A stretch of 64,000 nucleotides of DNA from Phorcus lineatus (taxonomy: Eukaryota > Mollusca > Gastropoda > Trochida > Trochidae): positions 39,804,836 to 39,868,835 of the forward strand of contig OV121088.1 of NCBI GenBank assembly GCA_921293015.1, read 5' to 3'. This document shows positions 20,443 through 64,000 of this stretch, in pieces. The notes under the pieces were generated by a model. That model was not told the origin of the DNA and ran no database searches. It saw only the letters and a program-made list of their open reading frames with translations. Both the position numbers and the translations under genes were made by a program. Positions within the stretch are counted from its first letter, which is position 1; each line of letters opens with the position of its first letter.

Positions 20443-20444
20443 TA

Positions 20445-36860: not shown

Positions 36861-37144
36861 TTATCGATCATTGTTTTAGTGTATTAGTATTTTAAGATGA
36901 TTTCTGGTCAAAAATCATAGATTAAAGCACTGTTTATTGAATAATGCACTAAATATAATATTAAAAAATTAGTGATTAAAATTTATCAAAAGAGACATCT
37001 TTTTATATTCACAATCAAATAATATTCCAACCTATGTTTTGCAGAGTATGACTTCGTCTGCCTGGACGATGATACTACTGGTTGAGAGCAGGGATGCCTA
37101 AATCGAATGCTCAATAAGAAACCCCCCAAAATGATCAATGACTA

Positions 37145-37336
37145 TTGAGTCATGCCTCAAGAACGCATGAAATGTATCCAGAATTGCCAATACATAATCA
37201 AAGAACAATCTCGATTGATTCAAATGATCTAGAAAAGATATCACATAAAGATAATGATAGTGTACTGACTGAAACAACTGTCAGAATAATATGGCAAGGG
37301 GCAACTGCAGACTTCAAAGCAAATAAGCCAAGTTAG
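37145..37336 (+). CDS. possible small exon or chance frame, unknown product
   Basis: A 64-codon open frame starting at TTG with a protein-like, charged, low-Cys composition (blocks HNQRTISIDSNDLEKISHKD and TADFKANKPS), ending in TAG. A good plus-strand acceptor, CTATGTTTTGCAG, lies about 100 bp upstream at 37044, but a stop lies between in this frame. The unit B counterpart (about 51630-51735) keeps the frame over the last 20 or so codons with a 27-bp in-frame deletion (KDNDRVL then TANFKEH and stop). It loses the frame further upstream. The evidence is mixed, and it may be a relic exon or coincidence. Confidence 0.2.
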   Translation: MSHASRTHEMYPELPIHNQRTISIDSNDLEKISHKDNDSVLTETTVRIIWQGATADFKANKPS

Positions 37337-38059
37337 TAGTTAATTGTCTCACAAACGCATACAATATAGACATAATTAAAGCCACAACATATTTGCCTCT
37401 GAAAGTTCTCAAAGTTTTGGCCTCTTCATAGGCTATAACTGGCTTTATTGTCGGTTAATAGGAAAATGCTGACACATTTTAAGATTTCTGTGGACTATCG
37501 ACGACTCGGGAAATCAAAGGAAAGCTTACATTCTATCACAGATGTATTTACAAAATGTTTATTGCTTTGATGTACAGTATCAGACAGGTGCACATTTAGC
37601 TTTGTCCTCCATAACATTATACATGACGAGTTATCCATGAACGCCACTTTATACTGCGTTATGTGAATAGAAATTTGCATGCTGAATTTGATAAATAGAC
37701 TTATGAGACATTTTTTCACTGTCTCGTAAAACTTGTTTGTTCTTCATCAGAGAAGCTTTTATTACTGTATGAGTTCGAATTTATTTCTCTGCAACGTAGT
37801 GCACAAATACGCAATATGGTAATTGCCAGAGTAAAATTATTGAGAAGACAAGATAAACATATCATTAGTTAAAATGTATAATGTATAACATGTTCTTGAT
37901 ATTTCAAAGTTTAACTGAAATCTTAATTTGCAATTGATTTCACTTTGATCACGGTAATTTTCCTACACAAAACATAACACACTAATAAATCAAAGGTTAA
38001 TTCTATTAAAAACATTAATGTTTTATTGCGTATCCTCTTTATACTATCGTGGGAAATGG

Positions 38060-38420
38060 TTTTGGACTCACTATCTGATATTTTGCGACTTGTTTATTAA
38101 GACGATAGGCAACTCACGAGAGAAGGTGTCTTAGACTTCAACCTTGTTAGTGGTTATTGATTATTTCACAGCAAAAGGGCACTTTCTGGTAATAATTTCT
38201 AAGTAATTGTGTCTCAAGGAATGAAAACTTTTTGCACAGTTACCTAGGAAACGTGCCATTTAGTTTTCATTAAAAGTTTCAAACATTTTACATATGTCTT
38301 AGATGTATTCAGCCAGGTTTACTCTAATTACTTTACTTACTTTAGTTGTTTTCTGCATCAAATATTCGATTAATGTGTTGTCCTTTTGGCTTTGACATCC
38401 AATAACATTATTATAATCAA
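38060..38420. repeat. conserved A/B block, non-coding
   Basis: One of the best preserved A/B matches (partner 51960-52400): GGCAACTCACGAGAGAA, GGTAATAATTTCTA, TTTGCACAGTTA and AAAAGTTTCAAACATTTTAC in order. No shared open frame was found, so this may be a conserved noncoding segment. Confidence 0.7.
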
Positions 38421-40174
38421 GGACAAAATATTCAATGTCATGCCATAATCGCTGTGTTTTTAATGATATATTCTTTTACATATAAAAGTACAGTAAAAAT
38501 AGCTTAATTTACATTAAAGCCAAATAACGACAAAACAAACAGAAAGAAAGAGTTTGAATTAAAAAAATATTCATCACATTAAAAATATTATTCAATCACA
38601 TATTCTGGTGTGAAGCTTTTTAAAACATTTCTAAGCGTTGTTCCATCTTGTCAGTCTTGATTCGATTGTTTTTAAGCTAAGCTCACTGCACATTAAATTT
38701 TGAAAGCAGAATAATGCTGCTACTACTCCTACTTTATGTAAGACTTTAAGTGACTCAACATGCTCTATTTAAGACTGAAACAGTTTCTCTGACGTTTAAG
38801 AACAGGAACGTAACAGGAAGTAACGAGATCAATAACAGGAACACAACGTTCCGGACTTTACACAAGTTAGAGGACATTAGTTATTTTCTTTCCCAACAAC
38901 ATGGCAGCTGATCAATCAAATCTTATCAACATGCTTTCAGGCTGCAAATACATGCATCAAATTTTAAAACTTTTGAAGGAAACTGTGATTACATCTGGTT
39001 AAAATTATTAAAGTCTGCATCTGTTTTTTTCAAAGCTTTAACATAAAGCTTGATATTTATAGTGCTTATAATTCTATAATCATTAAATTTTGAAATTTTA
39101 GGAACTACTTTATTATATCTTAACTTATTCTAAATTGAACATGTGTGTTCTTAGCATCCATCTTAGCGTATTTAAATCCGCCCTGGCTTCTTCCTAATAC
39201 CCTGATCTCTTTCGGGCTAAATCCTTCGCACGGCTGGCGAACAGGGCATTATATTATAAAAAGTGAGCAATACAATGTTGTTATTCAAACTACAATTTTG
39301 TTGAAGATAACAAACAATCCACATGCAAGCTTCTATTCTGTAACGTTAACTGTGAACTTCTGAATGTTTTAGAGATAGTATAATCTTATATATTGTTGTA
39401 AGCTTCAAGACTAATTACAAACCTTGATGTTTATGGTCATTTCAATACTTTCAACCCGTCAACTGTACCACAAATTGTAAAAAGAGAGTTGTACGAGAAA
39501 ATCGGCAATGCATGGAAATAAAAAAATACCTTGTCAAATGTCAATGTCATCATGAATCTCATTTAATTTGCTATTTGAAATAGATCAAGAATTAACCAAA
39601 CGTTTGATAAGCTGATAAAGATGTGGAAGATAAATGGGGTCGAGGTGATAGTTAATTGGTCAGTATGTCTTAAAATTCTTTTTAAAAAGTATAACAAATT
39701 GCTGTCAATTATAACTTCGTCACACCTGCTTATGGTTTACATGCGCCTTCCTGTATTTCGATAATGAGCTATGGAAAAAGGTGCGTGCCTCCTTTGAAAA
39801 ATGCCCTTTTAGCAAATGAAGCCATGTTAACAGTACAATTTTTTAATGAGAAGTCATATGTTAACCTCACATCATATTTCTCTGCATAATGAATTGTTTC
39901 ATTGCTATTGTTTTTCGGATTGAAATTGTGTTATGTTCATATGAAATAATGATGAAACTAGACCACGACAGTTGTATATGTAAATAGAATACTAAATAAA
40001 ACGTTTAGAACACATAATTCTATCTTATACAAACACGCACACAAACTGATACTTACACTAAATGATCAGCGAAAGATTAATTGATGAACTCTACAAACAA
40101 TGCTATTGTGTTAATGGCTATAGATTGAGAATGCTTTTTGACTTGAAATTTACATGTTTACTTTTTAAACTCCA

Positions 40175-40235
40175 TCAACAGTCATCTTCAAGATACGTTT
40201 CGGAAGTAGGCAAAACAGATTGCCAAGTTAGCCTT
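40175..40235 (-). CDS. possible last-exon fragment in unit A
   Basis: On the minus strand a short frame ends ...PTSETYLEDDC and stop (TGA at 40175-40177). Its unit B partner ends ...PTVETYLADC and stop (54720-54722), differing by one whole codon and using the same stop. Both are preceded by GAAAACGAA- or GAAAATCGAAA-type AG dinucleotides without a clear polypyrimidine tract. Upstream, the A frame is closed by a TGA while B stays open for 11 more codons. It could be the C-terminus of the gene whose leader exon lies at 42843 (A) or 57478 (B), but the stretch is too short to be sure. Confidence 0.2.
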
Positions 40236-41099
40236 CACAATTTTCGTTTAAATCAAGACTTTGAACTTTTATTTTTAAAAAACACATTGTTAGTATAGGA
40301 GCATTTGACGACCAAAGAATATGTATTGTTTTCTTTCTTTTCAGATCTTAACTGTAGATCCTATATGTGTATAAAGTTTTTGAGTTATAAAACCACACGA
40401 CATATAGACATTTGGTACCTGGTGCCGTGTGCCACTGGTATTATTCCATTACTTGCTATCACACACTGAGTGCAACCAGTAGAGCAATGACCACACAATA
40501 ATTGACATTTTGCAACGGTCATTTCTCTCCCAGACAAGTGAATTACTGGATTTCATTGAAGTCTCAACACAATAACCACTTAAGCAGGTGAATGTAAAGC
40601 ATGTCTTAATGCGTCTGTGTCTTTGTGTATAAAATTATCTTTATTGATTTAGTGCAGAGAACAGTATTAGCTGTGCGCTGTACTGGCACACTCTAGCTTA
40701 AAGAATTCATGAGAATCGTTTGTAAATTATTGCTGATTACTCATCAGTAAACGCAAACTTTCATTGAAGGAAAATTTATAATCATTTTACAATAGAATTA
40801 CATGTTGGTGCATTGTTTTCGGATCCATGCAAATTATTATCATGACAAATATTCTTTGGGCCTAGGGTATACCTACTGTCAAGTTTCTAACTCATTTTAA
40901 TTCAATCAGTAATCGGATCAATGAAATTTGATTAAACCATTATAATAATGTGTACAATTATATACAAATTATACACACCCGGTAAGGTATGGTCCCAAGG
41001 TGTTACGGTCTTTATGACGCGTATTTCTAATTCAGGTCATCATCAATTGCGAGACAAATAATCAGAGACAAAGACATTAATTGAGCATTTTCTGCCGGG

Positions 41100-41530
41100 T
41101 CATTCATTCTTTTACTTCGGCCAGAAAAACGAAGCTCTTCTTAGTGCACGCAGTAGGCTTCAACATGAACACGTTAGTGGGACTTTAAATGTCTGAAAAT
41201 GTTAGTGTTATGGTTTTCCGTCACACTGAAATTTTAATTTCAAAGGGAGTCGGCAATTTCTTCCGCCAAGTGGCAAAAGTGTGAAATATACTGAACAAAA
41301 ATTAACCCTAAATAATTTAATATTCTTAGTAGAAAACCTCGCTAAGCAGCTCATGCATTCTTCAAGAAAGTATGAGTTAAAATCCTATGTTTCATCACTT
41401 ATAGTATTCAGGTTTTAAAAATCAACCTTTCAAACATTATTGTGACTTGTGTTTACATTGAAATAGGCAAAATACAAATTTTGAAGAAATCGATATCTCG
41501 AAAGCACCACTAAACATGATGATCACTCTA
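41100..41530 (+). repeat. dispersed repeat R1, copy 2
   Basis: Contains TTTAAATGTCTGAAAATGTT, TTTAATTTCAAAGGGAG, CCAAGTGGCAAAAGTGTGAA, TAACCCTAAATAA, ATTCTTAGTAGAA and the 3' GAAAGCACCACTAAACATGATG block. The first five recur in order at 42085-42330, and the whole resembles 34850-35260. Confidence 0.65.
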
Positions 41531-42084
41531 CATTCAAACTTTCAATGAGCTAGGTCTTGTAGTAATGTAAGTAATTTGTTGTGGAAATGGCCAAAAGTAG
41601 AATAGGAATAAGTTGAAAACTCCAAAAGGCACCACTCCACATGAATTTATCCCATTCAAAAATTATTTAATCCTTCTCGCAGGGCTTCAATTTATGACAA
41701 AAAGAAAGACATCGTTGTGAAATGTTGAAAATGACTGCTCAATTCATTGAATTCCCTATTTTGTCCTACAGCATTTTGTCTGGATAGATTAGATTTAGTC
41801 CTGCAATATTAAGTTGGTGTACTAATACCAGCAATTGAAAAGGGTTAAGCAACTTCTGAAAAGACATTATTTTTATGGTGACAATTGTATCGAGTAGAGG
41901 GAAAGTAGATATTATAATTAAAAAGTTTTTAAGAAATTTAAATCCCATTCTAAAATACGAAACGGCTCATTTTTACCTTGAAATAATTAACAAATGTTTG
42001 AAAAAAAGCAACTTTCTAAAAGCCTTACCAGTAACATCAACTTGCGATGTGTCATGTTAATGTCAATACCTATATTTTCATGTT

Positions 42085-42330
42085 AGAAAAATGACTTCAA
42101 ATGTCTGAAAATGTTCAGTTTCATGTCATGGTTCTCATTTAAATTGAAAGTTTAATTTCAAAGGGAGATGACTATATCCCCGGCCCGCCAAGTGGCAAAA
42201 GTGTGAAGTATATTGAACAATAGTGAAGAGGCTATACTCGTTCATTAACCCTAAATAACTTGATATTCTTAGTAGAATACCTTGCTTAGCAGTTCATTGG
42301 TAATACATTCTTCAAAATCACATATTAGGA
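42085..42330 (+). repeat. dispersed repeat R1, copy 3
   Basis: Same ordered blocks as 41190-41370, about 0.9 kb downstream and in the same orientation, with one 20-bp insertion. A local duplication inside unit A. Confidence 0.7.
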
Positions 42331-42484
42331 CCTCGCGAATTCCATCATAGATCAGGAGTGGCTTTTAGAATAATTCCTGCTCCTATTTTTACTTGATATG
42401 CATCTAACGGTTGCTTTTGTATACCTTTTAGCTAATAAGAAATGAAAACCCGACTGGCTTTTGACATTGCATTGCGTCTTTATC

Positions 42485-42624
42485 AATATATATATATATA
42501 TATATATAAATATGAAGTTAGAAGTAAAAACAATCCATTTTAATGGCTAGCGCTTTCAGCTCAACGAGCCTCTTCAGGCCATACTTACAACGGATGTGAA
42601 CTTTTTTCATATATATATATATAA
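42485..42624 (-). mobile_element. ribozyme-bearing retroelement fragment inside a TA microsatellite
   Basis: About 100 bp of unique sequence (42509-42607) splits a TA microsatellite into (TA)n at 42485-42508 and 42608-42624. It carries a hammerhead motif on the minus strand. Penelope-like elements and retrozymes of invertebrates carry hammerheads; this fits a short, truncated copy inserted in, or expanded with, a TA tract. The matching place in unit B (about 57230) lacks it. Confidence 0.6.
42543..42582 (-). ncRNA. hammerhead ribozyme, minimal type with loopless stem III
   Basis: On the minus strand, in order: ATGGC (stem I, 42582-42578), CTGAAGA (CUGANGA core, 42577-42571), GGCTC-GTT-GAGCT (stem II and loop, 42570-42558), GAAA (42557-42554), GCGC (42553-42550), TA (U16.1 and H17), then GCCAT (42547-42543) completing stem I. 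All catalytic core positions fit the hammerhead consensus. The closing pair of stem II would be G-U. Stem III is just the self-complementary AGCGCT, which cannot close a hairpin in one molecule, so cleavage would be expected mainly in dimeric or tandem RNAs, as described for hammerheads of Penelope-like elements. Predicted cleavage lies between 42548 and 42547. Activity is not shown. Confidence 0.75.
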
Positions 42625-42842
42625 GTCTCTTTTTCATGACATTTTTCTCTCTAAACATCTTTGTGCAATTGAATATTAGACATAAATGAGTATTCAATAA
42701 TACATATTTACATCAACAATATTCGTTAGATGAATACTGTACCATGACAAGTAGAACATTGAATGGTTATCCTCTTATTACTATCTTTGTAATAAATATT
42801 TCATTATTTGCTTTCATCTTTCCAGAAAAGGGTATAAATTAC

Positions 42843-42947
42843 CTGTGTACAGACATTATCACAAGGTAGTGTGACGATGACCAAGACGATAGAAAAAATA
42901 ATTATCCAAAGAAGAAGACTGTCCTTTGATAAACGTAACCCAATGTC
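42843..42947 (-). pseudogene. leader exon relic of the tandem secreted-protein family (unit A)
   Basis: The minus-strand frame is open from after a TGA (42948-42950) to a splice donor CAG|GTAATT at 42843/42842. It encodes SKDSLLLWIII, a further hydrophobic run, and VTLPCDNVCTQ. It aligns with the unit B exons codon for codon except for one missing codon in the hydrophobic core. Four clean synonymous differences (Ser AGT/AGC, Leu CTT/CTC, Thr ACA/ACC, Leu CTA/CTT) are seen against one conspicuous replacement (Thr to Pro) outside the core. The position of the B start codon reads TTA here and no other ATG is in frame. This copy has therefore either lost its start or is entered by splicing. The hydrophobic run plus Pro-Cys looks like a signal peptide. 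Confidence 0.45.
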
Positions 42948-42949
42948 TC

Positions 42950-44770
42950 AGTCAGGAAGAATTCCAGAAAATCACTGCGTAGCTAGGAATTGTTATCTCT
43001 AGCAGTGAGAAAGCGTAAATGCGCCGTTCTAACATTCGGTGGATGGAGTTAGTAGGAACCAAAGCCTAAAATGTGTTCTATTCCCCTTCCCTGCATGATT
43101 TAGTGACTGATTGATCTGCTTTATATAGCGTGTACAATGGAAAGCCATTAATTGAAATAAACACATACAGATAATATGCATTGCACCGAAAAATAGTTTT
43201 CCATTATACATCAAAATACAAACAACCAGACACTAAGTTTTAGGAAGATTAGGATTTTTGATCAAAGTATTCATAGTCATTAATGAAATCCCCTAATGCG
43301 TCTGTCTGGTAACAGTTTGTGCTAATATTTTATCGTTCGAGTATCAAAGTTGAATTTAGCAAGTTGAGTGAACATCAGGAGAGAGTCCATTACGTATCAA
43401 TGAAGCAAATTTTCACGGTGTCTATTGGTCAAAATAACTGCATGATTGGCATGGTTCCGTTGCCTCAACAGAAAATGCAACAAATTTAATTGATGTTTTT
43501 CGTAAATTTAGTTTTTTCGACGCCACTTTCTCGACTTGGCACAACAGATTTGGTATCTGTACTTCTGCTTTATACACTGATATAGGCAGTAAACAAAAGT
43601 TGCAAAACCTTTTCATTATCAAATGATGGTTTTAAGGAATAAAAAAGAAATAAAAAGAATGAGATATATTTTTGTCATACGGAAGTTCCTGTTGGCCGAA
43701 TAGTGCTAGGTCAGAATTGATAATTAATTACTTTATTATTTTTGATGTTGGCTTTCAATACACATAAAACTTGTCTTGGTGATGAAAAACACATTTGTCT
43801 TTGTTGAACTTCAACATAAAATCGTTAAATAGAGGGGGAAATGAATCTTCAAAGAATTGCACACTACAAAAATAGTTTGTTTCCATGTCTTAGTGAACCA
43901 AAATAGATTTTTTGAGTGTGGAAATGTATTTTATGAATGGAGAAAGTGTGAGTAATCTTATTAATCTATTACTACAATGTTCCTAAACAGATAGGCAAAA
44001 AGTAAAAAGAGATATGGTGTTAGTTGTGCGAATCATTGTTCTTGTATGTCTCAGATAAAATATATTGATCTTTAGAAATTTTAACATTAACTTTCTACCG
44101 CAAATCAAATTTTAGATCTAATAACGGCACTATGGTTAGATAAGACAGTGTTCGAAATATGACTTTTCTTGCGACAATTTGCAACTTTAATTAGCCTTTC
44201 TGAAACGTTCTTAGTCTTTTAAAGGCATATTATGAAAGTATATTTGGTCAACTACAAGAACAATTTTTTCTCAGTATCCCTTATTGTCTTCTGGGTCATC
44301 AAAACACAGATGATAAAACCGATAATATCCGTATGCGTTATAGTTTTTTATGAATGAAGTGCTGTGTACTTCAGTGTCAATAATTGTTCTATCGAATCGC
44401 GCTACTACTTTTCCCGGACCTGTTGGTTTTCGCATAAAAGAGAACTTCTTGGATGTTTAACGTTTTTTTCATTCCATGTATTAATTAGTTCCTCCTTTGA
44501 AACAAATGCTTATTAACATGCAGAGGTGATTTTTATATTATTTATTTATTTTTTATATATTATGCAGGTGTTTACTTTTAATATGGCTTATTCTTCTGAA
44601 AATTAAATACTCATCTCTTGTATGAGAGTATGAAGTATACTTAGGATTACAAACCTGTCATTTGAAAATTAGTTCTGTCAAACGAACTAATGCAGAATCA
44701 CAATAACGATTTCCACTACTGTCTTCACTGACCGGACGCACACTCATCACACTATAATTGAGACTTTAGC
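42950..44770. other. upstream flank of the unit A leader exon
   Basis: Well matched to 57580-60560 in unit B (anchors AATGAAATCCC near 43283, GTTGCCTCAACAGAA near 43460, ACATAAAATCGTT near 43815, TGTGCGAATCATTGTT near 44025). Antisense frames here (43029-43214, 43422-43622) are not kept open in B, so I do not call genes. Confidence 0.6.
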
Positions 44771-44930
44771 ACAATCATTTCGATTCCGGTCAAATGAATT
44801 ACTTTTTCCTGGATTCCATCAATTACTTTACAAATAGTACTTAAACTGGCGTGTATGCACTAGCAAAATATGTCTTCATGAATATTTCATCTGTATGGAT
44901 TGAAGTCTCGAACACGTTTATTTTCTAATA
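44770..44930 (+). repeat. diverged second copy of the 40.5-kb block
   Basis: Resembles 40500-40640 (ATTTC then GTCAAATGAATTAC, TGGATTCCATCAATTA, GCATGTCTTAATG or AATATGTCTTCATG), about 4.26 kb away. It lacks the splice-acceptor-like CCAG of the other copies. Confidence 0.45.
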
Positions 44931-46089
44931 ACAACTAAAAATTTATTCTAAATAATAAATCAATAAAGTTGTTTAATGAATTATTTTCACTTGACATTTA
45001 ATAAAGAAATCTTACTTTCGTTTAAATACTAGGCCTTTTATGTAATTTAACGTTATATTCACTATACGTTTGTGTGCTGAATAGAATATATTCACATTAC
45101 AGTTCTTGATAAAAATAATCATTACTGTAATCTCAAATGTGATATTTCAGTCCAGAAATTCATTAATCAAATGTTCTATGGGTTTTTTCAGAATCGCCCT
45201 TTCTATTTCTTTTCTAGGTTTGATGACTTTTACTTGAGTATAAATATCAATCATTAATGTCGTTATTGATAAAACCTGTGATGTGCGTTTCATAATGATG
45301 TTTATCAAATTGTTGGTTTTAGATTAAGTGATTTGCTTATCATGACAATTGATAAGAAAACTTGTTACAACTTCAAACTTGTTGATATTCAAAACGTGAT
45401 CATTATACAAATTATAGTTAGAGTTCAATAAAATATTGCAAAACAATTCAAAGTAAGCCAAAGGAATCAAGTATATCGACTGAGAAATCATTCGGGCAAA
45501 GTTAAGGTGATCACGTCAAATAAATGAAAGTATTCAAAAATGTGTAGATTGGTTCAAAAATTACTTTTGGCCCATAAATATACATTTGCCTATTTACCTG
45601 ACCTAAGAAGTCTTTAACAATAGGTCTTCTTAATATCCTGACGTTGTTTTGAACTTGGAAATTTGTATAGACGTTTGAACAAACATGTAGTGTTGGTGTG
45701 ACCTTTTAGTGTGACATCTCCATGATTTCCAATTATTGTTCACAAGTGTTACTATCATTCTATATCATCTATAACTAATAATAGTCACAGTTTTGTTAAG
45801 GCGTCAATAATGTTGCGTCCGGGAAAGACGTTAACTTGTCTGGCTGGCTACTAATAGCAAAATAACACGGTGAAATGTCAGAAAGAACATACAAAGACTT
45901 TATCATTGGATGAATAATTAAATGTAAGATGGATTGATTCTATATTCAAATGAGATAAAGGACACAATATTCTGAAATATTTTACAATCTATCTTTTTTA
46001 ATGTCCTTAGTGTTTCCCAAATCAATAAATGTGTCTGACTTTTATACACAAAACACATTTCTTCTAACACAATTCTTTATTATATGATG

Positions 46090-49620: not shown

Positions 49621-50394
49621 AGTGTAAAGTATTGTTACATACCAACAACAGGGGTTCAAGTTATTAGCAGAGAAAAATGTGTGACGGACAGATGGACACA
49701 TTGTCAGTGACCACCGACTACTTTAAAACGGGGGTGTACATATGTGCTTATTCTGCACGCCTTGTTTAAATATCATTTTTCATAACGTTTAGTATGTGTA
49801 ACCCGAAAAAATCATTGACGTCACTTAAAGTTCATCTATGGGGAAATGTGCACGGGAATGCCAGGTATAATCAACTTTTAAAGTATCTACTTTAAAAAAG
49901 TACTTGTTTAACAATTCTACGAGTGGAAAGACAGACTTAATAATGACATCAAGCAGTACAATGTCTCATGCAATAAAAATGTGAACAGTTATATATGCGA
50001 GTCCTATTAATTGAATTTCAAATATCAGGTTGCACAGGTATCAAGTCAGTATGATTAAGTTTTTATTTTCTTGATTTCAAGTTTTACTTTATTAAGCATT
50101 GGAAATGGCAAAACAAATCGACATTTTCAAGTTTAATCAATGCCAGTTAACAGTGGCAAGAGGCTTGTTAAATTTAGTTCTGTAATTCAAATCAGGCGGT
50201 TTCATTTAATGATCCATTACTTGGGACACATTGCAATTACATATCAGTTGATAAATTGAAACACTAATGTAAAACAATTCTTAATATAGGCAACGAGGAA
50301 GGTTTCCTTGAATACAAAAACCATCTAATGAAGATATATCTTTCTTATTCAAAGATTAAGATGAATATATACGATATAAATGTTTTGTTTAGTT

Positions 50395-50838
50395 TTAAGG
50401 TAAATATATATTAACATTAATGAAGAGAAATAAACGGATAAAAACTTCTTGAAAACAAGAATCTGTGTTGAAACGCTGTATATCATCAATAAAAAAAGCT
50501 TTTCTCTTTTTATTTTTCTTCATTATCGTCACTTTTACTTCTAAAATGCCTCTCAAGTATGAACATGTTAAAAAGTAAATTTTAAAAATCATCATTTGAG
50601 CATTAGGTTCTCTTTTTACATCAGCAATCCCTCTTTTGAGCATCAATACAGAAATATACATAATTTTGAATTTGCTTATCTCTAAAAGTATAAAGGGATA
50701 CTCCATGTTTTTATGATATTTGATAGGTGCGAAAATATCATTGGGAATAAAATACATATCCAGAAATCCTAATCTAATTGTTCTAAAAAATAGATACTTT
50801 TGATGACATTGAAAACTGAACAACGGGAATGTATACAT
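50395..50838 (-). CDS. 147-codon open frame, unknown, possibly chance
   Basis: Longest open frame in the window: ATG at 50838, stop at 50395-50397. The product is rich in I, F, K, Y and M with no Cys pattern, signal peptide or motif I recognise. The unit A counterpart starts similarly (MYICPLFNF against MYTFPLFSF) but has stop codons after 17 codons and several times later. The frame is therefore not conserved across the duplication. In DNA this AT-rich, one frame this long in 64 kb is only mildly unexpected. It could be an orphan ORF alive only in B, but chance is more likely. Confidence 0.2.
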   Translation of the reverse strand: MYTFPLFSFQCHQKYLFFRTIRLGFLDMYFIPNDIFAPIKYHKNMEYPFILLEISKFKIMYISVLMLKRGIADVKREPNAQMMIFKIYFLTCSYLRGILEVKVTIMKKNKKRKAFFIDDIQRFNTDSCFQEVFIRLFLFINVNIYLP

Positions 50839-53800
50839 GTTTGATTAGAAGCCGAAAACACCCGTCCCATTGACATGGATATTGGTGATTCGGCCCATTA
50901 AAGTTTTGACAAATGTATAACTCACTAAATAGAAGAAGTTAACCATGGAACATTATCAGTTTTGTCCTGCCATTCGTAGCAGTATACCCTTATATGCTTA
51001 ATATATAAATGCAGTTAGCATTTAAACATACATTTCCAAGACAATAGATAATTGTAACAGTGTCATATGCAACTGGGTTGAATTTCAACAGCCATCAACA
51101 GTTGTTTATAAAGCAAATAAGATAACCTTAGATTTTAAAATGACGAAAGAGTTCTTTTATATATTTATCATTCACGTTGGTGTTCTTCCAAACCCTACTT
51201 GTTAAAGAATAAGAGCTTGAAGGGTGCATCTTTATCTTTGACTTTCAGTGGTATCTTAGCAGTTCTGACGGGTTTTTTGTTCACACCAAAAATAAAGACT
51301 CAAGACTTTAAGCTTGTTGTTTATAAATTGCTTTTTAGTTTTAAAGCAGTTTTTTAACGAGTAACGAGTGCTGAAACCAGAAACGTAAAAATAGGAATGA
51401 TCATTACAATGAAATGACATATTCAGGGCAGAGCACTTGAGGCTGCAAAAACAAATCATGAGATTGAAACTTACTACTACGTTTTATTGTGCTTCCAAGA
51501 ATACTACCTGAGCAAAGATATTCTGAATTCAGAGATAACATTATGGACTATCCTCAAAAGATCATCATAGAAAAAAACTGGCTGAACACTCAATGACTTT
51601 TCTTACAGAATCACACAATCTCAAATGATATTAAGCTATATACTACATAGTTGTATAGATAACATACCACAAAAGGATAATGATAGAGTACTGAATGGGT
51701 CAACCGCAAACTTCAAAGAACACTAGCCACGCTAAATAGCTAATGGTCTAACAAACACATAAAATATACACAAAATTAGAACTACCAAAATATTCTGGGT
51801 TTCCTTATTTTCCTTCTGTTCACATTTCTCCGACCTGAACAGTCTGTCTACATCAGTAGAAGAATTAAGGAAAACAAAACTACGTTATCCATAATTCGTA
51901 AACGGCGTTTATTTTTCTCTTGCAAAGCTGTTGAGTGCAGTGAGTGTAGAAGTATTTACTCTAACATGCTGTGAACTTTAGCGGATTCGTTTATTATCGT
52001 GAAAGGCAACTCACGAGAGAAAGTGTCTTGATGTTAACTTAGTTGATGATTATTGATTAATTCACGGCGAAAGGGCGCTTTCCGGTAATAATTTCTACGT
52101 AATACGTAAGTAATTGCGTCTCTTGGAATAAAAAAAACTGCTTGCACAGTTATCAAGGAAACATTCTATATAGTTTTCATTAAAAGTTTCAAACATTTTA
52201 CATATTTCTTTAACATATCCAGCCAGACATAATCTGATTACTTTAGTTAATTTAGTTCATTATGAATATAAGATCAAACATTCGATTATTTTGTTGTCAT
52301 ATTGCATTTTATGTCCAATGATATTGTTTTAATCAAGGACAGTAGTATTAATTTTGATATCACGCCAAAATCATTCGTCGTGATTAAGTGATTAATTTGT
52401 GTGAATGTATAATAACAATAAAATGTATTTGCAACCAATTTAGGATTCAGAATGTGAATATAAAGATGATACTTTACATGAACGTGTACATATCTTTGTA
52501 AGATCTATCAACATCAATCAAATATATACTTTCATTAAAAATGTTCATCAATCAATGTTCAACACTTCTTATGTTAGTTTAGCACGTTTATCATAAGTTC
52601 TATCCCTCTCTAAAAACTAATAGAGAAGACGTCATTTGTCAACAACAACATTTACTAAATACACACATTTGGAGTGAGTGATAGTTTTAAGGGTTTTAAG
52701 GTGCATTCTTCAACCTTTCAATCATTCAATTTGCGATAAACATCATCAAAGGTCACTGATAATCTAATACTTCATATTTTTCATTTTCTTTCAACAAAAG
52801 CTATAGTTACCTCTTATTAAATAACATGATCGACAGACATTGTTTCCTAATCTGAATTCAGTAAATAGAATAAATGGTGTTTAATGTACACAACTGTATG
52901 AATATTCCTGATAGTGTTTTGTATTTCGTCTATTTGGTCTCCCTTGCCTTTTGCTTTATTAGGAATGATGATTTGACAAGCATTAACAGATCAAAAACAC
53001 ACCATAGTCTGAATACACTCTAACCAATCAGTGAATATATTTTGCTTCATTTTCAACATTTCAAGGTGTTTTGAATTTAAAACTTTTTAGAATTTAGACA
53101 AGTGAAATTGATGAAAGGTGTTAATGAAATACTTAAATGCAGTAAATAGCCTAAACAATACAGATAGGTAAAAATTGTGTGACCTTATTTAAGACTATAA
53201 CAAACGGTTCAATTGTACACAGTGAATACTTTCGAAATGATGTAACGTTATTGGTTGCTGTCAAAATGTCAACGCAATTAGAAAACGTGTGTTGTCATGG
53301 CCATCCCCCCTACTTTCAACTCCAACAATGACAATAGACAGTAGAGAGTTATATAAGATTAGACATTAATCGACAATAATTTTGAAGTAGTATAAATACT
53401 TTTAGATGCTGCGTTCATGATACCTGTGTGGCCATATCATTGTGATTCATGTAATATTTACTTTCCTATAGGAGAGATGAAATGATTGATGAAAAACTAG
53501 TATTTAACATTGTAACATATTGTCCATCACTAATGAAAATAACAAAATTAATTTGGCCTGCTTACTTTATGTATGATAAAAACTAAATAAGTTTTAAATA
53601 TAGTATTTGTGTCTTCCATATTTATGAAACTTGTAATATTGTATAAACAAGGGGGCAGTTAAATTAGCAAAACAATAACATATATATTTCATTCAACAAT
53701 ATCATTCAAATATGCTAAAAAAATAAAAATTCCGGACGTAAAGACGTTACTTCAGCAATGTCAGCTGCCAAAGATTGAATTTTAGTAACGTTGTTGCACC

Positions 53801-53913
53801 TTGGAAATGTCGATTCATTAACATTAGTCGTGACACGAGGACCGGTTTGAGTTCTAGTTATAGTTATTGATTAATTTGTTTCAAGTAAAGCTAATAAAGT
53901 GACATTATAAATA

Positions 53914-54230
53914 TTTCAAACACATAACTCTACTTAGACAAACACGCACACAGACTCTCATCGTGGAACTAGTAACGTTTCAAACACATAAGTCTATCAT
54001 GGACAAACACGCACACAGACTCTCATCGTGGCACTATACGTTTCAAACACATAACTATATCTTAGACAAACACGCAAACAGACTCTCATCGTGGCACTAT
54101 AAACGTTTCAAACACAAAACTCTATCTTAGACAAACACGCACACAGACTCTCATCGTGACACTATAAACGTTTCAAACACATAACTCTATCTTAGACAAA
54201 CACGCACACAGATTTCCATCGTGACACTAA
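53914..54230 (+). repeat. 63-65 bp minisatellite, five units
   Basis: Units begin TTTCAAACACATAA(C/G)T at 53914, 53978, 54041, 54106 and 54171. Each contains TAGACAAACACGCACACAGA and CTCTCATCGTGGCACTA. Unit A holds just one unit at the matching place (about 39999-40060: GTTTAGAACACATAATTCTA, ACAAACACGCACACA). The array thus expanded in unit B after the duplication. No reading frame is kept across units of 63-65 bp. Confidence 0.95.
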
Positions 54231-54719
54231 ATGACGAGTCTAAGATAAATTTAGGAATTCTAAATACAAGAATAATGTTTAAATGGTTATCAATCAAAAC
54301 TGGTTCGAGAATGAAGATAGAAGTTGGTTATTCGACTTGTATGCATGTAAGTTAATAACAAGAGACAAGCATAGACTGGATTGTAATTTTCCTCAATTAT
54401 AGATTAGCAATGATCATATATTACACATAGCTTCTCTAGGCTTGGTAAGCTCGATTTTGCGTTTTCAATCAAGGGATCTAATTGAATCAAAGTCCACGGG
54501 GACACATTGCTACGATCTGTCAAAGGCATTTATAGGTCAATAGACATACGAACAGATCAAGTCGTTGTTAGTTTAAATGTGCTTTGGAGACCTCTGGAGC
54601 TATCATGATCTACATACACCATCTCATAATGAAGTACAACTCTAAAGACGACTTACTTTCAGAAACGACGTACGATTTATGTCTCATTTACATGTTAGCC
54701 TGTTAGATTCTACCAACCG

Positions 54720-54808
54720 TCAACAATCAGCAAGATACGTTTCGACAGTAGGAAAGACAAATTGACGGGCCAGCCACTTTCGATTTTCAATGAATTTAAG
54801 ACTTAATA
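54720..54808 (-). CDS. possible last-exon fragment in unit B
   Basis: Minus-strand frame open from after a TAA to TGA at 54720-54722. It encodes SLKFIENRKWLARQ, FVFPTVETYLADC and stop. The C-terminal 15 or so residues align with the unit A frame (40175-40235) with a one-codon gap and the same stop. The acceptor site is unclear. A real exon would be expected in the gene led by the signal-peptide exons at 57478 or 58477, which lie upstream on the same strand. Confidence 0.22.
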
Positions 54809-55259
54809 TTTAAAAAGTCCACTTAAGTAAAATAAGACTTAGATGACACACGGATATGTGATCTTTCCTTTATTTCTATCACTTAACTACAGATCCTATA
54901 TGTATACCAAAAAATTTAGGTATCAGATCACACAACAGAGAGCCTTTTGGAGCCTTTTACTCTCTGCCAATGGCAATATTTATTACTTTCCTTTATCAAC
55001 CTGGACATACCAAGATGAACATTGGCAATGCAATATCTGACATTTTCCCACAGTCATTTCGTTTCCAGACAAGTGAATTACTGGATTTCATTGGTGTCTC
55101 AACACCGTAACCACTTATGCAGGCGAAATTGAGGCTTGTCTTAATGCGTCTGTATATTTGTGTATAAATTATTATTATGGATTGAGTTCAGAGAACATTA
55201 TCACCTATGCGTTGTAATGGTCCACCCTTCAAAGAGCTTCTTTTAATGATGGATAAAAC

Positions 55260-55570
55260 AAGCAATGGCCTTAACATGAAAACTTAAGTGCGACTTCAAA
55301 TGTCTGACAATGGTAAAAAAAAGTTCTGCATTTACTTCTCATTCTACGTACCTGATCTATTCGCAAACTTTCTTGAAACGCTATAAACATTCTGTCCTTT
55401 AATTTTATCATAATTCCCTGTCAGTCCGTTATATATACCTTGATAGTCAATCAGCTCAGTAAAAATATAATATTTGGGAGTAAATGGTACAGTCGCATAG
55501 AATCTCTAACCCAACAGGGTAAATGGCATAATTGTGTCATACATAATTAACCAACAACGTCAAAATAAGA
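55260..55570 (+). repeat. dispersed repeat R1, unit B copy
   Basis: Partner of 41150-41380: CAATGGCCTTAACATGAAAA, CTTCAAATGTCTGACAATG, then AGGGTAAATGGCATAATTGTG in place of AAGTGGCAAAAGTGTG. Strongly diverged. Confidence 0.5.
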
Positions 55571-56689
55571 TATCGGTTGTTGCTTTATTCAAATGTAATG
55601 TGATATTTGTATAACTAACCAACTAATCTGTGAAAATTGAAATAAGCCTAGTACAGTAGAAGTAGAGATTTTGTGGAGGACTATAAGGGCAAAACTGATC
55701 ATGTCAAATTAAACATTTAATGTTGTTTTAGCTGTTTAGAAACATTGAACATGGTATCTATGATTTGTTTCCCTGTTGATGCCTACAAACCAACAATTAA
55801 AGCAGTTTTATTCAAATAGATTAAGTTTAATATGTTAAAGCAGTTACATCATCTCTTTAAATTATCCTTTTATAAAGTATGGTTATTCGAATTTTACACT
55901 GTGAGCTCTTACTTATTGTAAAAGCCATGGGAAATGTGATCATACTATCATTCTTAATCTGTGGCCAGTGTGGCTATACAGTTCTTATGTGATAATGGAA
56001 TTGAGGAAATTACCTTTCGCAATTTTAACAAAAGTCATAAATTGTTCAATCCATCTTGCAGGGGCTTCAATTTATGACAAAAAGCAACACGATGTTTTGA
56101 AAGGATTGCGCAAATATTTTGGACTCTCTTTTGTTACCTACAGCAGTTATCCTGGTTATATTAGATTTAGTTCTGGAATATAAGGATGGCGTACTTATAA
56201 TAGGTAATTGAAAAGGTCAAGCAACTTTGGAAATTATCTTAATGGTAACTTAAACTATTTGTCCAAGTAAAGGGAAAGTAGATATTGTAATTAAAACATA
56301 TCTTAGGAAAATAGGAAAACCTTTGCAGTAAAACCCAACAATGCAATTTGTAAATGTAAATTTTATTTTCATTTCTATACATGGTCAATAATCAATCTGA
56401 TATGATGCAGACGGACTAAAATTTTTGTCATTTTTAACCATAATTAGGTATAATTGTAAACTTTAGTTGAAATTTTATTTAGGAATTTGAAAAGAATACC
56501 TAATGAGGACCTGCAACACCCATAAAACATAAAAAATGGCGTTTGAAAAATAAGTAGTATTGTTGTGCTCCTAGTTTTTACTTATGGTTGTCTTTGCTTT
56601 CAGGTTTGCTCATAAGGCATGAAAGACCTGATTGGCTAATGACATGGTGCTCACTGAACAACTAGAAGGAACTACATGAGGTAATGTTT

Positions 56690-57010
56690 GCAAGTCTGTG
56701 GCCCCTAATGAGAGAGAGACTTTGAGGACATTCTCTAGAAGCCACTTTTCTTCTTCTCCAAAACAGAAAAATCCGAAAAGTCTAATATCTTTTGTACAGA
56801 CGAGTTTGGACTTGTGATGAGTTTTTGCAACTACTTGTAATGATAAGACTTGAACACAGTCTAGCTGCCGGAATCGTGCTTGCCAGCTTTACCCGGATGT
56901 TAACGCCTTGCACGCCTACCTGTAATTGCATTCAGTCTTTATTAAACGTCGTCGTGTGCAGGCGTTGTCTCGTCTTCACTCGTGAGCTGTCTTCGTCGTA
57001 GCCGTCTATT
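56690..57010 (-). mobile_element. GC-richer island, possibly a solo LTR or retroelement fragment
   Basis: This patch is more GC- and CpG-rich than its flanks and has no counterpart in unit A. On the minus strand it contains a canonical AATAAA (about 56937-56942) followed 11 bases later by TTACA, which recalls the R/U5 side of an LTR. No second LTR, primer-binding site or target duplication was found. The overlapping 69-codon plus-strand frame (56792-57001) has no motif. The element class is uncertain. Confidence 0.28.
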
Positions 57011-57428
57011 GTTGCACTGATAACTCCATTTATCCCATTTGAAATCTCCATTTTTGACTGAAAATCTGTTTAAAGTCCTATATATTCATTTTGATGTAAA
57101 TTCTACTTCATAATGATAAATGACAATGCCTGCAGGTGTGCTACATACTCAATTCTAATTCGTTGTTTTGAATGCGGAGGAATAAATGAAAACAGTGGAC
57201 TCCGATAGCTGTGATATAATTTGAAAGAAAACGATTTTTGTCCTGATCGAAACATATCTTTTCATAAAATTTATCACTCTACACATCATCATGCAATTGA
57301 AAATTAGACATAAATGAGTGTTCAATAATAGCAACCCAAGTCATGTACTGCTACGAATATAATGTACAAAATTTGATAATTGAATATTTTAACATGACAA
57401 TTAGAACATTGATAATTATCTTCGTAAT

Positions 57429-58427
57429 AAATATTTCATTAGTTTCTTTCATCTTTCAGAAAAAGGATATGAATTACCTGTGGACAGACATTATCACAAG
57501 GAAGGGTGACGATGACCATGAGAATACAAACATATATAATTATCCAAAGAAGGAGGCTGTCCTTTGATGGGCGCATCTACATGTCTCAGTCAGACAACAT
57601 TCCTGAAAACCACTCGGGGCTAGCATTTGTGAATTTGATTCTTCAAACAAGGGTAAAATATTTCGGTGGAATACGTCTGAAGGAATCTTAGAAAAATATT
57701 AGCTCTATTCCCATTCACTGTATGATTTCGTGACTAAAACAGAAAGCCTTAGTTATCAATATATTGTCTACTATAAATTTGATGAGACCTTATGGTCGAA
57801 AATACTTGTGAATAAATCATCTGTTGTGTTCGGTTCTCTTCTTCAAAACAAATATACTGGTTAATTGTTTAGCAAACTTTTGCTTACTTAAGGTTAATGA
57901 TAATCAACCCACATGTGCAAGTTTATGTTCATTTAAATTGAAATATCGTATATTGAGAAATTAATCACGAGTGTAGTTTTGTATTTATAACTATTGCAAA
58001 CTCATTGCGCCAAATGTAACAATCTGCTTTGTTAAATTGAGAATATCAATATCAAATCCTTTCACAATGTAAACGTTGACGTTTAACTTTATAAAAGTGA
58101 AAATGATAAGCCATTAACCAAAATAAACACATGCAATTAAAATGCTCTCCTCCAAAACATAGTTATAAAAATCAACCATCAAAACGTAAGCAGTCAGGCG
58201 CTTAGTTTTAGCAGGATTAAGATGTTTCATCTGAGTATTTATGTGATTAAATGTCATTAATGAAATCCCTAATGTGTCTGTCTGGTGATGATATGTGCAA
58301 ATGATTTATCGTTCAAGTAGTCGATGTTTAATTAAGCAAGTTGAGTGGAGGAGATTTCATTTTGTATCAATCAAACAATATATATAAATCAAATTCGATG
58401 TCGGACCATCACCTGTTGCCCCACAGA
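57429..58427. repeat. 999-bp tandem duplication, unit 1
   Basis: Nearly identical to 58428-59426. I found just two differences (58133 G against 59132 A; 58249 A against 59248 C). It contains the leader exon and its upstream flank. The junction lies at CCCCACAG|AAAATATTTC. Confidence 0.97.
57478..57576 (-). CDS. leader exon of a secreted or membrane protein, copy B1
   Basis: A 33-codon first exon on the minus strand, from ATG (57576-57574) to a donor CAG|GTAATT (57478/57477), phase 0. It encodes a basic MRPSKDS start, an 18-residue hydrophobic run (LLLWIII, then YVCILMVIVTL), then PCDNVCPQ. This is a typical signal peptide (n-, h- and c-regions), with the mature protein likely starting at or near Cys-27. 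The relic in unit A is aligned in frame with mostly synonymous changes and a one-codon gap. The start has a weak context and directly follows a minimal upstream ATG-TAG. Later exons should lie at lower coordinates; none is certain. The mature domain is therefore unknown. The protein could be soluble and Cys-rich, or a receptor. Confidence 0.5.
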
Positions 58428-59426
58428 AAATATTTCATTAGTTTCTTTCATCTTTCAGAAAAAGGATATGAATTACCTGTGGACAGACATTATCACAAGG
58501 AAGGGTGACGATGACCATGAGAATACAAACATATATAATTATCCAAAGAAGGAGGCTGTCCTTTGATGGGCGCATCTACATGTCTCAGTCAGACAACATT
58601 CCTGAAAACCACTCGGGGCTAGCATTTGTGAATTTGATTCTTCAAACAAGGGTAAAATATTTCGGTGGAATACGTCTGAAGGAATCTTAGAAAAATATTA
58701 GCTCTATTCCCATTCACTGTATGATTTCGTGACTAAAACAGAAAGCCTTAGTTATCAATATATTGTCTACTATAAATTTGATGAGACCTTATGGTCGAAA
58801 ATACTTGTGAATAAATCATCTGTTGTGTTCGGTTCTCTTCTTCAAAACAAATATACTGGTTAATTGTTTAGCAAACTTTTGCTTACTTAAGGTTAATGAT
58901 AATCAACCCACATGTGCAAGTTTATGTTCATTTAAATTGAAATATCGTATATTGAGAAATTAATCACGAGTGTAGTTTTGTATTTATAACTATTGCAAAC
59001 TCATTGCGCCAAATGTAACAATCTGCTTTGTTAAATTGAGAATATCAATATCAAATCCTTTCACAATGTAAACGTTGACGTTTAACTTTATAAAAGTGAA
59101 AATGATAAGCCATTAACCAAAATAAACACATACAATTAAAATGCTCTCCTCCAAAACATAGTTATAAAAATCAACCATCAAAACGTAAGCAGTCAGGCGC
59201 TTAGTTTTAGCAGGATTAAGATGTTTCATCTGAGTATTTATGTGATTCAATGTCATTAATGAAATCCCTAATGTGTCTGTCTGGTGATGATATGTGCAAA
59301 TGATTTATCGTTCAAGTAGTCGATGTTTAATTAAGCAAGTTGAGTGGAGGAGATTTCATTTTGTATCAATCAAACAATATATATAAATCAAATTCGATGT
59401 CGGACCATCACCTGTTGCCCCACAGA
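58428..59426. repeat. 999-bp tandem duplication, unit 2
   Basis: Second copy of 57429-58427 with two base differences. It ends at CCCCACAGA before AGTTGTCACAAGG (59427 on). Confidence 0.97.
58477..58575 (-). CDS. leader exon of a secreted or membrane protein, copy B2
   Basis: Identical to the exon at 57478-57576, including donor and upstream ATG-TAG, and carried by the 999-bp duplication. It lies upstream of B1 on the same strand. It may thus serve as an alternative first exon with its own copy of the promoter flank, spliced to the same downstream exons, or be a redundant duplicate. If the duplication is an assembly error, only one exon exists. Confidence 0.45.
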
Positions 59427-62110
59427 GTTGTCACAAGGTAACATCTACTCAAAATAAATGCACTTAATGATTGAAGTGTCCCGTTGCCTCAACAGAACAT
59501 GCAACAAGAAATTGCAATAATTTTAAATGCTGTTTTTCGTACGTTTCGTCTCCTAACTCGACTTTCTCGACTCAGTACAACAGGTTTGGTAACTGTAACC
59601 CCACTTGGTACACTGCTGTACCCAATAAATAAAAGTTACAAACATTATTTGATGACTCAGTAACTTTTTCATAATCAAATGATGGATTGAGGATTGAGGT
59701 CAAAGGGTCTATTATTATCAGACAAAACTTCCTGTCGGCTAAGTATTGCTTGGTTGAAATCAATAAATAGGCCTTTTCTATTTGATTTTGACGTTCATGA
59801 TACATAAAAGTGGTCTTTGCGATGGAGAGCCCATCTGTCTGTGTTCAACGTCAACATAAAATCGTTGAAAAAAGGATAATTTAAAGCTTCAGAGACAGTA
59901 TAAAACAACAAGATTGTTTTCATGGCTAACGTACCAAAATATATTGTAGAAATGCATTTTAAGAGTGCTTAAAGTGTTAGTGGTTGTTTTAATTGTTTCC
60001 TTCCAAAAATGGAATGGCGAAAAGTAAAAACAGATAAGGGGTTATTTGTGCGAATCATTGTTATTCTATCTCTAAAGTAAAATATAATGATTTCAGAACT
60101 TTTATAATTGATTTACTTCCGCAAATGAAATTTTAGATCTATATATAGATCAGATTTTATAGCTACTATGATTATGAGAGACAATGTTCAACATATAGCC
60201 TTTATTGCAAATTAACCGAAACCATGTGATTATGATACCTGGTTCAGATGTTAACATGACAGTGTTTGCAATCAAGCTGACAGCCACACATTTTTCCAGG
60301 AACTCACTTCTTGTTAACGGATATTCTTCTCATCATTTATAGACTAAACTGCTTTATGCACAGGGTCTTGGAAAGCCTTCAATTTCTTATTTAATCAACT
60401 TATGTGTCTTTTTCAGACTGCATTTTTATTGTTACAACTGGTTTGATTCAAGTAAATGCAATCTTTCTGAAATGGTGTTCACTTTAACTGAGGGTATATT
60501 TGGCCAATTGAAAGCAACAAGTATACCTTATCTTCTTCTGGTCATCAAAACACGTGGATGATAAAACTGATAACAAAATCTAAATGGAAATAGAAAATTA
60601 TGCGCATGTTACAATTTTAAAAAAGTGTTTATGTATGTGTATTTTCGGCCGGAGGCCTGTTACTGAATAAAATGTGTGTCCGTCTGTCTGTCTAAAACTG
60701 ATAATGTCCACATGTATTATTGTGTTATGTGAATACCATTTGATTAATTTAAATGCACATGACTGTTGTATCAAATCTCATCATTATATCCCGATGTGCT
60801 TCTATGAGGCTTTACGTTTTCCTCTTTCTATGCATTACTTTGATCATCCTTTAAAATGCTAATTATGATATTTAGGAGATAAATCTCTTCTGTTTTTTAT
60901 TTTGGGGTTGTATGTCGTGCATTTTTCACCCCTAAATTTAATTTCAAACCGAGCTTGCGAATCTATTTCATATGATAGTAGGTTTTAAAATGATCTTTAC
61001 TTTAATCCCCAAATTTCACATAACAGCACGGACATTTAATAATCAAATGTTTTTTGTTTTTTTTAAAAAATCACCTTTCTAGTTTTGACGATCTTCATCG
61101 TCATTGTTTACATCAACAATTACTGTTGTTGTTTAGGAAATCTGTGATGTGTGTGTGTGTTTAACAATGATGGTTATACAATTTTCTTTGTTAGATTGTG
61201 TGCAGTGCATATTATAACAAGAAAGTTTTACAACTTCACATGTTACACCTTGTTGATTTTTACATCCTGATCACCATAGAAATTGAAAATTAATAAACGA
61301 TTGCACAACCCTTCAAGGAAGCCAAAGGAAGCGAGGATTTTCGTTGACAAATTATTCAGTTAAAGTTAAGTTGATCACGTTACATTTATGAAAGATTTTC
61401 AGATGTTCTTAACTAGTTCTTGCAAAAAATCGAATTGACTATACTTATTTAACACTAGGTCTTCTAAGATAAATGTAAAGATTGGAAAGTAAGCTATATG
61501 GCTTTACAAACAACACTGAACTTCAATTTCAGTGGGAATGGACTTATTGTAAGGTAGACATAATAGGTGTTTATAATATTAAGTTGTTCATTATGTATCA
61601 AACTACAGGGTGTTTTGTAAAGTGGAATTCAAACTTGAGATTTTGTAAAAAAAAACATTTTAACACATATGTAGTGTGGGTGTGACCTTGCAGTGTGACA
61701 TTTCCATAACGTCCAATTAAATGTTCACTATGTGTTACTATCATTGACATATATAACGAAAAATATTCCGGTATTTGTAAAGGCGTGTCAAACTACACAA
61801 TGTAGTGATCATCAAAGTTGTGTCAAGGAAAGGCGTTAAGGTGTCTGGCTACCAATAGCAGAATGACAAGGCTAAATGTCAGAAGGAACATGCAAAGGAT
61901 TTTATCATTGGATGAATAATGAAATGGAAGAATGGATTGAAAATATTCTATATCTTAATGAGATCACTTTAATAAACTACATCATATTGTGAGATCGTTT
62001 ACAATCTGTCTTTTTTAATTTCCTTACTGTTTCCCAAATGAATTAATGTGTCTGACTTGGAGACACAAAACATATTTCTTCTACCACAATGCTTTTGAGT
62101 CAACATAATT
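59427..62110. other. right part of unit B, non-coding
   Basis: Collinear with 43440-46090 in unit A. A perfect 16-bp palindrome GATCTATATATAGATC lies at 60137-60152. A GTGTGTGTGT run is near 61149. Frames at 59572-59805 and 60674-60862 are not conserved in A. No gene called. Confidence 0.5.
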
Positions 62111-62359: not shown

Positions 62360-64000
62360 ACTAAAGCCTACAAGAGGCATATCTACACGTTTTTCACAAT
62401 CCAACAAAATGTGTACGTGTTGAAAGTGAAGCAAAATATATATGCAAATACTATGCAAAAGGCAAATTCAAAAGGCACATCATTCAAAAGACAGACAGAT
62501 GGATGGAGTAACACGCTTACCGCTGTATACCTGCGACTACTTCGTATAACCAGTTTGCCTTGTTTGAACATCACCTTTGATAACGTTTAGTATATGTGAC
62601 GCCTACAAACTATTGGTGCAGCTTAAGGATGTCCGCTTCTCAAATCTAAAATATTAAACTTTTTTTCTAACTTGTATTTTTCAAAAGTTTAGTGCATTTG
62701 CTTGAAGTATCAACCTAAAAAATGGGGGTTAGTGTGGGTTTTTTCGAAATATTTTAAGACAAAGATCCCTTTGTCAGTCAGATATTTAACATGGGAGTCC
62801 ATGGGGAAATGATGACCTTTTTAGAGAAATATTAGATTTAAATTAGTTCCTGTATTAAACTTTTTTAAATATGAAAATATGTTAGAGTTAATATAATTTT
62901 CTTCAAGAAAAACGTAAAAAATATATGTGGTAGTGTGGGTTTTTAGCCGCTACGGCACAACATGTATTGAACATTTCAATTAAATTATCAATATTCAAGC
63001 TGTTTTTGTACTACAAACATGCTTTCTCCCACTCATTATCTAAAAATTTACCTGAACGTATACACACAAATCATATTCATTCAACAACATCTACTTTGTA
63101 CGAAAAACAGTTAATAGAACTTGCTCACATGATAGTTACAATTGAAAATTGCTGAGTCAGCAAAATTGGGAATTATTTAAGAATTAGATTACTATGTCTG
63201 TTAATTTTGATGACTTTTTAATCAGTAATCATCAAAATTAAGAAATTACTTATTCATTTTGACTTATTATATAAGCACATTATGATTTAAGGTTATTTGA
63301 GTTTTGTATCTGTGACTTGTATCAGGTGAGGATCGAACATCCTAAAAGGAAATTTATATATTTCAAACAATGGCTTTGACAAAGTATATAAATTTATATC
63401 ATGTAATTGGATTACATAATGGTTAACCATAGAACATTGATCAAGGTTATAATTATTGCTGATTGATGGTGATCAATGACGGATACACATTAGTCCTGTT
63501 AATCTCAGAATAGCCTTATAATCTGAAATAAACCCACCGGTTGTTTATAGATATTACAAGTAGTTTCCCTGTCCTTTTGATTTTAACCTAAACGAAAAGA
63601 TGAAACCAATGAAAGTGTAAGTCACAATTTTCTGACGTTGTTACACTATTAGGCTGATGCTCTTAATGAGAAATATGGCACAAGGATGGCAAGAAAAACA
63701 ATTTTCAAATATGTAACTAAACTAAGCAATGATAAGTAAATGAATATATGTCGTAAATTGGAATATTCATTAAAAAGATTTATAAAATAAAATAAGAACA
63801 ATTCTGCAATTACTTGGACAGACTTAATAACGATACAAGCAATGACATTTCTCATGCATAAAGCAATTTAACATAACAGTTTGTTACAGGTTGCCCATTA
63901 CAATTCAGCTGAAGTATGATTAGTTTTCACTTTTCTGGAGTTGAAGTTGGTTAGTGAATGGAAATCGCAAATCAAACCTGCATTTCCACACAATGACAAG
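62360..64000. repeat. segmental duplication unit C, start only
   Basis: Matches unit B from about 49440 (ATAACGTTTAGTAT(A/G)TGT at 62580 and 49783; GACAGATGGA near 62490 and 49688) and unit A from about 35415. Anchors are GACAAAGTATATA at 63377 and 35430, CAGTTTCCCTGTC or TAGTTTCCCTGTC, ACAGTTTGTTAC, and AGTATGATTAGTTTTCA at 63913 and 36010. It is cut by the window edge. The matching position at 63913 is 13.87 kb after B and 27.90 kb after A. Confidence 0.8.
62618..63150 (+). repeat. probable repeat insertion specific to unit C
   Basis: About 0.5 kb or more without a counterpart in A or B. It begins near CTTAAGGATGTCCGCTTCTC and contains two GTGTGGGTTTTT motifs (about 62733 and 62935) and AACATGGGAGTCCATGGGGA. 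The last resembles a motif I associate with interspersed repeats in bivalves. The ends are undefined. Confidence 0.35.

Follow-up and report, generated by a model that had tools for sequence, protein, structure and literature searches.

A candidate hydrophobic leader exon, intact in one unit of an old duplication and recently doubled, in a 64-kb stretch of the Phorcus lineatus genome

We analysed a stretch of 64,000 nucleotides from the gastropod Phorcus lineatus (hereafter the window) and found on its minus strand a 99-nt frame of 33 codons, MRPSKDSLLLWIIIYVCILMVIVTLPCDNVCPQ, that begins with ATG and runs directly into a splice donor motif, CAG/GTAATT. The frame encodes MRPSKDS, a hydrophobic stretch and then PCDNVCPQ. 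We propose that it is a putative short first exon encoding a hydrophobic leader (i.e., a signal anchor or a signal peptide), intact only in unit B of an old duplication; judged from sequence, this proposal is a tentative one, just short of an even prospect. If it is correct, transcription would begin in the upstream part of a recently duplicated 999-bp unit, the first exon would be translated to supply a membrane-targeting leader that directs the protein to the secretory pathway, and the donor would be used to splice the leader in phase 0 to a downstream exon. An earlier note on this DNA had described a minus-strand exon ending at this donor, and its frame, its position (exact to the base, copy B1 in Table 1) and its donor were all borne out. 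The same note had the exon repeated through an array. Three copies are indeed present, and the phase-0 donor is found in 3/3; however, a nucleotide profile of the block (E up to 10) detected no fourth copy in the window, and two of the three stem from a single recent tandem duplication.

Table 1 Positions of the candidate leader exon, the duplicated units and the conserved blocks in the window
Feature	Position	Strand	Remark
Candidate leader exon, copy B1	57478..57576	-	33 codons; ATG 57576-57574; phase-0 donor after 57478
Candidate leader exon, copy B2	58477..58575	-	identical to B1
Old counterpart, copy A	42843..42938	-	open frame; donor CAG/GTAATT; one codon shorter; TTA replaces ATG
Read-through frame if donor unused (B1)	57442..57576	-	45 codons; same frame in A, stop at matching TAA
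First 60 bases past donor	57418..57477	-	52/60 (87%) identical, A vs B
Recent tandem duplication, first unit	57429..58427		999 bp
Recent tandem duplication, second unit	58428..59426		2 differences, opposite 58133 and 58249 of first unit
Old large duplication, unit A	35413..46078		outermost ends of alignable blocks; 35413-36009 alignable to C alone
Old large duplication, unit B	50048..62095		outer limits of alignable blocks
Beginning of further unit C	63361..63945		any leader of C would fall beyond the window
Conserved blocks, A / B	45671-46078 / 61655-62095; 40148-40694 / 54686-55228; 38092-38425 / 51989-52341

The copies lie within two duplications of different age. The old duplication gave rise to unit A (~35.4-46.1 kb), unit B (~50.0-62.1 kb) and the beginning of a unit C (63.4 kb onward), with offsets of ~14-16 kb from A to B and ~28 kb from A to C. 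Its longer blocks are 66-81% identical and short ones reach 91%, and beyond the conserved blocks of Table 1 it is alignable in patches only. Unit C carries an 80-bp block that is 89% identical to A 35963-36041 and only partly retained in B. The recent duplication is present inside B only. It copied the exon together with ~850 bp of upstream DNA, and the two resulting 999-bp units are 99.8% identical, with neither of their 2 differences inside the leader exon. Unit A aligns across both outer edges of the 999-bp segment, so the doubling is later than the separation of A and B. The identity of B1 and B2 thus shows the age of this one event, and identical copies of such an origin are no evidence of selection. 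The 999-bp duplication may reflect true variation in copy number or an artefact of assembly. It may have given B two interchangeable first exons and, if the leader exon is genuine, these near-identical exons would offer a simple test case for the duplication of a promoter together with its first exon.

A leader followed by a donor can also arise by chance. Among 64-kb sequences simulated with a first-order Markov model at the dinucleotide frequencies of the window, 4/60 contained a frame that starts with ATG, includes a strongly hydrophobic run and has an in-frame phase-0 AG/GTRA donor; the window itself holds a single independent instance, present twice. The combination is uncommon by chance, though not very rare. 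The GC content of the B leader is 42%, the 94th percentile among 99-bp windows here, and that of the A copy is 35%. The consensus donor has G at +5, which the leader donor lacks. The minus strand has 10 CAGGTAA sites, 3 of which belong to the copies of the leader, and the plus strand has one, against a simulated mean of 6.7 for both strands together, and this strand skew may hint at minus-strand genes. Half of the minus-strand sites (5/10) fall within 13.1-17.5 kb.

Locally, the copies diverge most around the start codon. B1 and B2 have ATG and A has TTA, a difference on which the earlier note was silent, and A contains no in-frame ATG after an upstream TGA common to A and B. Only 4/12 columns around the start (57569..57580, minus strand) are identical between B and A, the lowest value of any 12-column window in 57418-57600, whereas A and B agree at all 13 bases upstream (CTGACTGAGACAT) and at all 12 bases downstream (ATCAAAGGACAG). 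Diverged start columns between identical flanks are the reverse of what a working start would lead one to expect, and copy A is probably a relic. At the start in B, position -3 is T and position +4 is C, a poor context by the Kozak rule. Further ATGs are found at -138, -50, -24 and -6 among the 150 bases ahead of it, and the one at -50 opens a 28-codon frame that overlaps the leader. We also considered the leader as an internal exon in its own frame in unit B and rejected this, as in-frame TGA and TAG codons closely precede the ATG.

Comparison of A and B revealed that the exon does not stand out from its intron flank. Identity is 81/96 (84%) over the exon and 43/60 over the 60 bases upstream, and the intron flank is conserved as well as the exon (87% vs 84%). 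Furthermore, the top conservation peak of the whole A/B comparison (0.879 over 99 columns) is made up of 45 exon bases and 54 intron bases. Identity varies more along the comparison than chance would give, as the identity of this peak was matched in 0/500 column shuffles, in which gaps were counted as mismatches and are clustered, adding unevenness; that the peak covers the donor region also speaks in favor of the leader exon. Other peaks, of 0.81-0.87, lie in unit A at 45981-46079, 40531-40629, 38204-38299, 45826-45923 and 44017-44115, and none of them has a convincing reading frame. The three conserved blocks listed in Table 1 (beginning in A at 45671, 40148 and 38092) are 71-76% identical overall, with top 99-column peaks of 0.84-0.87. 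Because the other blocks of 0.81-0.87 are frameless, conserved non-coding sequence looks common in the old duplication. This favors an alternative in which the old duplication retains several short blocks of 80-88% identity, and the leader is a chance frame within one of these, a conserved non-coding stretch (regulatory DNA or a non-coding RNA), its hydrophobicity and its donor being coincidental. Conservation that continues through the donor, and the startless A copy, point the same way, and we consider this alternative a serious one, if somewhat less than an even prospect. The case would then serve as a warning that AT-rich DNA can produce short hydrophobic frames by chance. What speaks against a chance frame is the low frequency of the leader-plus-donor combination in the simulations, together with the substitutions that separate the codons of A and B.

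Of the 31 aligned codons after the start, 7 differ synonymously and 6 by replacement, and the alignment has a gap of one codon. The earlier note had counted four clean synonymous sites and one in-frame gap; the gap stands, whereas the count of sites gives way to this tally and to a changed start. By the Nei-Gojobori method, dN/dS between A and B is 0.21 over the 31 codons (bootstrap P for a ratio of at least 1, 0.013); an alternative gap placement gives 0.33 and inclusion of the start codon pair 0.23, neither of these two values being bootstrapped. A codon score, compared with a null in which substitutions were put at random and in-frame stops excluded, gave P 0.014-0.016 for the exon, and a BLOSUM sum by itself was not significant (P 0.10-0.13). 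Both dN/dS and the codon score favor the leader frame over a chance frame. The leader ranks best of 13 runs of 31 or more codons that are open in A and B in any frame, but the P of 0.01 for the exact exon becomes 0.13 after Bonferroni correction for the 13 runs. Likewise, the best sliding window (windows above 75% changed codons were dropped) has P 0.0027, or 0.15 when corrected for 57 windows, and since it extends 6 codons past the donor, the point at which the codon signal stops is blurred.

When runs of 20 or more codons were ranked (52/89 open runs retained, those with 75% or more changed codons having been dropped), the leader frame came second of 52 (P 0.03). The top-ranking run is a plus-strand frame, A 41881-41955 / B 56254-56328, with a codon score P of 0.001. 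This frame has stops on both sides in B and ends there in CAG/TAA with no donor, which excludes it as an ordinary internal exon; that such a frame scores better than the leader supports the chance-frame alternative. The protein-level selection asserted in the earlier note therefore keeps modest support, from dN/dS and from the codon score over the exon, but fails correction for the number of frames examined, and we regard the signal as suggestive only. If the putative leader exon is real, protein-level selection would have constrained it mildly in the lineage that connects A and B.

The same data bear on an alternative in which the donor is not used, and B encodes an unspliced single-pass microprotein of 45 residues that reads past the donor to a TAA common to A and B. 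The frame is open for 12 codons more in both units and stops at the matching TAA, the sequence it would enter is the well-conserved flank (87% identical), the codon score over the whole 45-codon frame gives P 0.02-0.04, and the best sliding window reaches into the added codons. However, the 12 codons past the donor have no codon signal alone (P 0.51-0.80, with little power at 12 codons), and the A copy is startless here too. We consider an unspliced microprotein quite improbable.

What kind of leader the candidate exon would encode can be judged from its hydrophobic run, which spans 18-19 residues with a best 15-residue mean hydropathy of 3.25. In a cleavable signal peptide, the h-region spans about 7-15 residues, and positions -3 and -1 are occupied by small residues. 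Inspection by eye revealed no clear small-X-small (A-X-A-like) cleavage site before the cysteines. Given the length of the run and the lack of a clear small-X-small motif, the predicted leader appears closer to a signal anchor than to a cleavable signal peptide.

Known families of secreted proteins offer partial parallels. Mussel CRP-I is described in PMC10138031 as a multigene family with presence/absence variation between individuals, in which the signal region is conserved more than the mature region and the coding region starts in exon 2. The sequence analysed here resembles CRP-I, as portrayed there, in having a common leader, no recognisable common mature exon and a recent change in copy number. 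It differs in that the coding region of CRP-I begins only in exon 2 and CRP-I has a C-C-CC-C-C array, whereas a six-frame search of the window for C(X3-6)C(X1-7)CC(X3-4)C(X3-5)C, made in open segments of at least 20 codons, gave no match. By analogy, the exon might encode the leader in a CRP-I-type gene for a short cysteine-rich secreted peptide, with a conserved signal and a hypervariable mature exon. The layout fits the description in PMC10138031, but the array missing from the open segments searched and a leader that is unusually long and hydrophobic argue against such a gene, and we give it only a very slim chance. Conotoxin precursor genes are, according to PMC3862624, split genes whose exons evolve at different rates, with most change in the mature-peptide exon and with introns conserved within a superfamily. 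The likeness to these genes is in layout alone, as no mature-peptide exon was found here, and we claim membership in neither CRP-I nor the conotoxins. Bivalve C1q-domain and C-type lectin arrays are presented in PMC6835236 and PMC10140915 as expansions of secreted-protein genes, and tandem duplication is named as a route of expansion in the former (PMC6835236). The array here differs from these in being without a Pfam domain above the cut-off in the six frames of 34-64 kb.

A spliced leader would need a partner, and we found no convincing second exon common to A and B on the minus strand. The block A 40452-40634 / B 54999-55187 is open for ~60 codons in both units but was rejected, as its changes show no preference for third positions (by eye). 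A six-cysteine frame at A 40388-40552, CQLLCGHCSTGCTQC, was also rejected, being not retained in B and having no Pfam match. Downstream of the donor (49400-57477), phase-0 acceptors lead into 28 frames of at least 25 codons, only 3 of them with at least 60% pyrimidines before the site. Phase-0 acceptor frames, including ATTTTCAG at 57057, occur in a GC-rich stretch of B, 56590-57065, that lies ~410-890 bp downstream of the donor. This stretch is single-copy in the window and for the most part does not align with A, the best local match (E 0.007) falling at the low end of the stretch. Its GC content peaks at 53% (56857-57006), and it contains a 92-codon open frame and a minus-strand AATAAA. It has no Pfam match, a PDB phmmer match for one of its frames (E 0.35) was taken as noise, and a plasmid search gave no match, as expected. 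It is possibly a transposon relic.

Pfam scans that covered 34-64 kb in all six frames and 4-34 kb on the minus strand gave no match above the cut-off, and weak rows of E 0.037-0.29, all under the cut-off, were treated as noise. No Rfam match at the gathering score and no tRNA were detected. PCDNVC had no match in the text of open-access papers, the leader had none in the PDB, a 30-mer common to the copies had none in viral contigs, and a paper search on signal-peptide exons had no yield. The absence of leader homologues from the text, PDB and viral-contig searches means little, as these covered no eukaryote genomes or proteomes. The earlier note's broader claim, that the array carries a family of secreted or membrane proteins, is not supported: the old copy is startless, the other two copies are one event, and neither a convincing mature-protein exon common to A and B nor a Pfam domain above the cut-off was found in the regions searched.

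A more specific form of the leader-exon proposal is that the locus is a lineage-specific orphan gene for a protein that is secreted or spans the membrane once, with a leader exon and promoter that were duplicated very recently and an old paralogue that is already startless. We consider this form unlikely. It would show a gene family in the course of birth and death, with the leader as the one part still recognisable between copies. If the leader exon is genuine, it would provide an entry to an orphan family of secreted or membrane proteins that domain searches miss.

Several other features of the window were observed. At least 5 cysteines within 40 residues are present in 31 open segments, a count that includes the duplicated segment twice, vs 19 (sd 4) in 20 simulated sequences. 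Unit B contains a 65-bp tandem array of ~5 copies at 53899-54229, and no tandem array was reported at its counterpart in A (39999-40121). A short repeat occurs at 34899-35135, 41181-41354 and 42093-42297; its two copies inside unit A are 73% identical, and the third, just outside unit A, is a weaker translated match. Finally, a dispersed repeat is present in opposite orientations at 19066-19643 and 31834-32070 (78-85% identical), and a 76-bp tandem array of 6 copies with 93% matches lies at 19987-20445.
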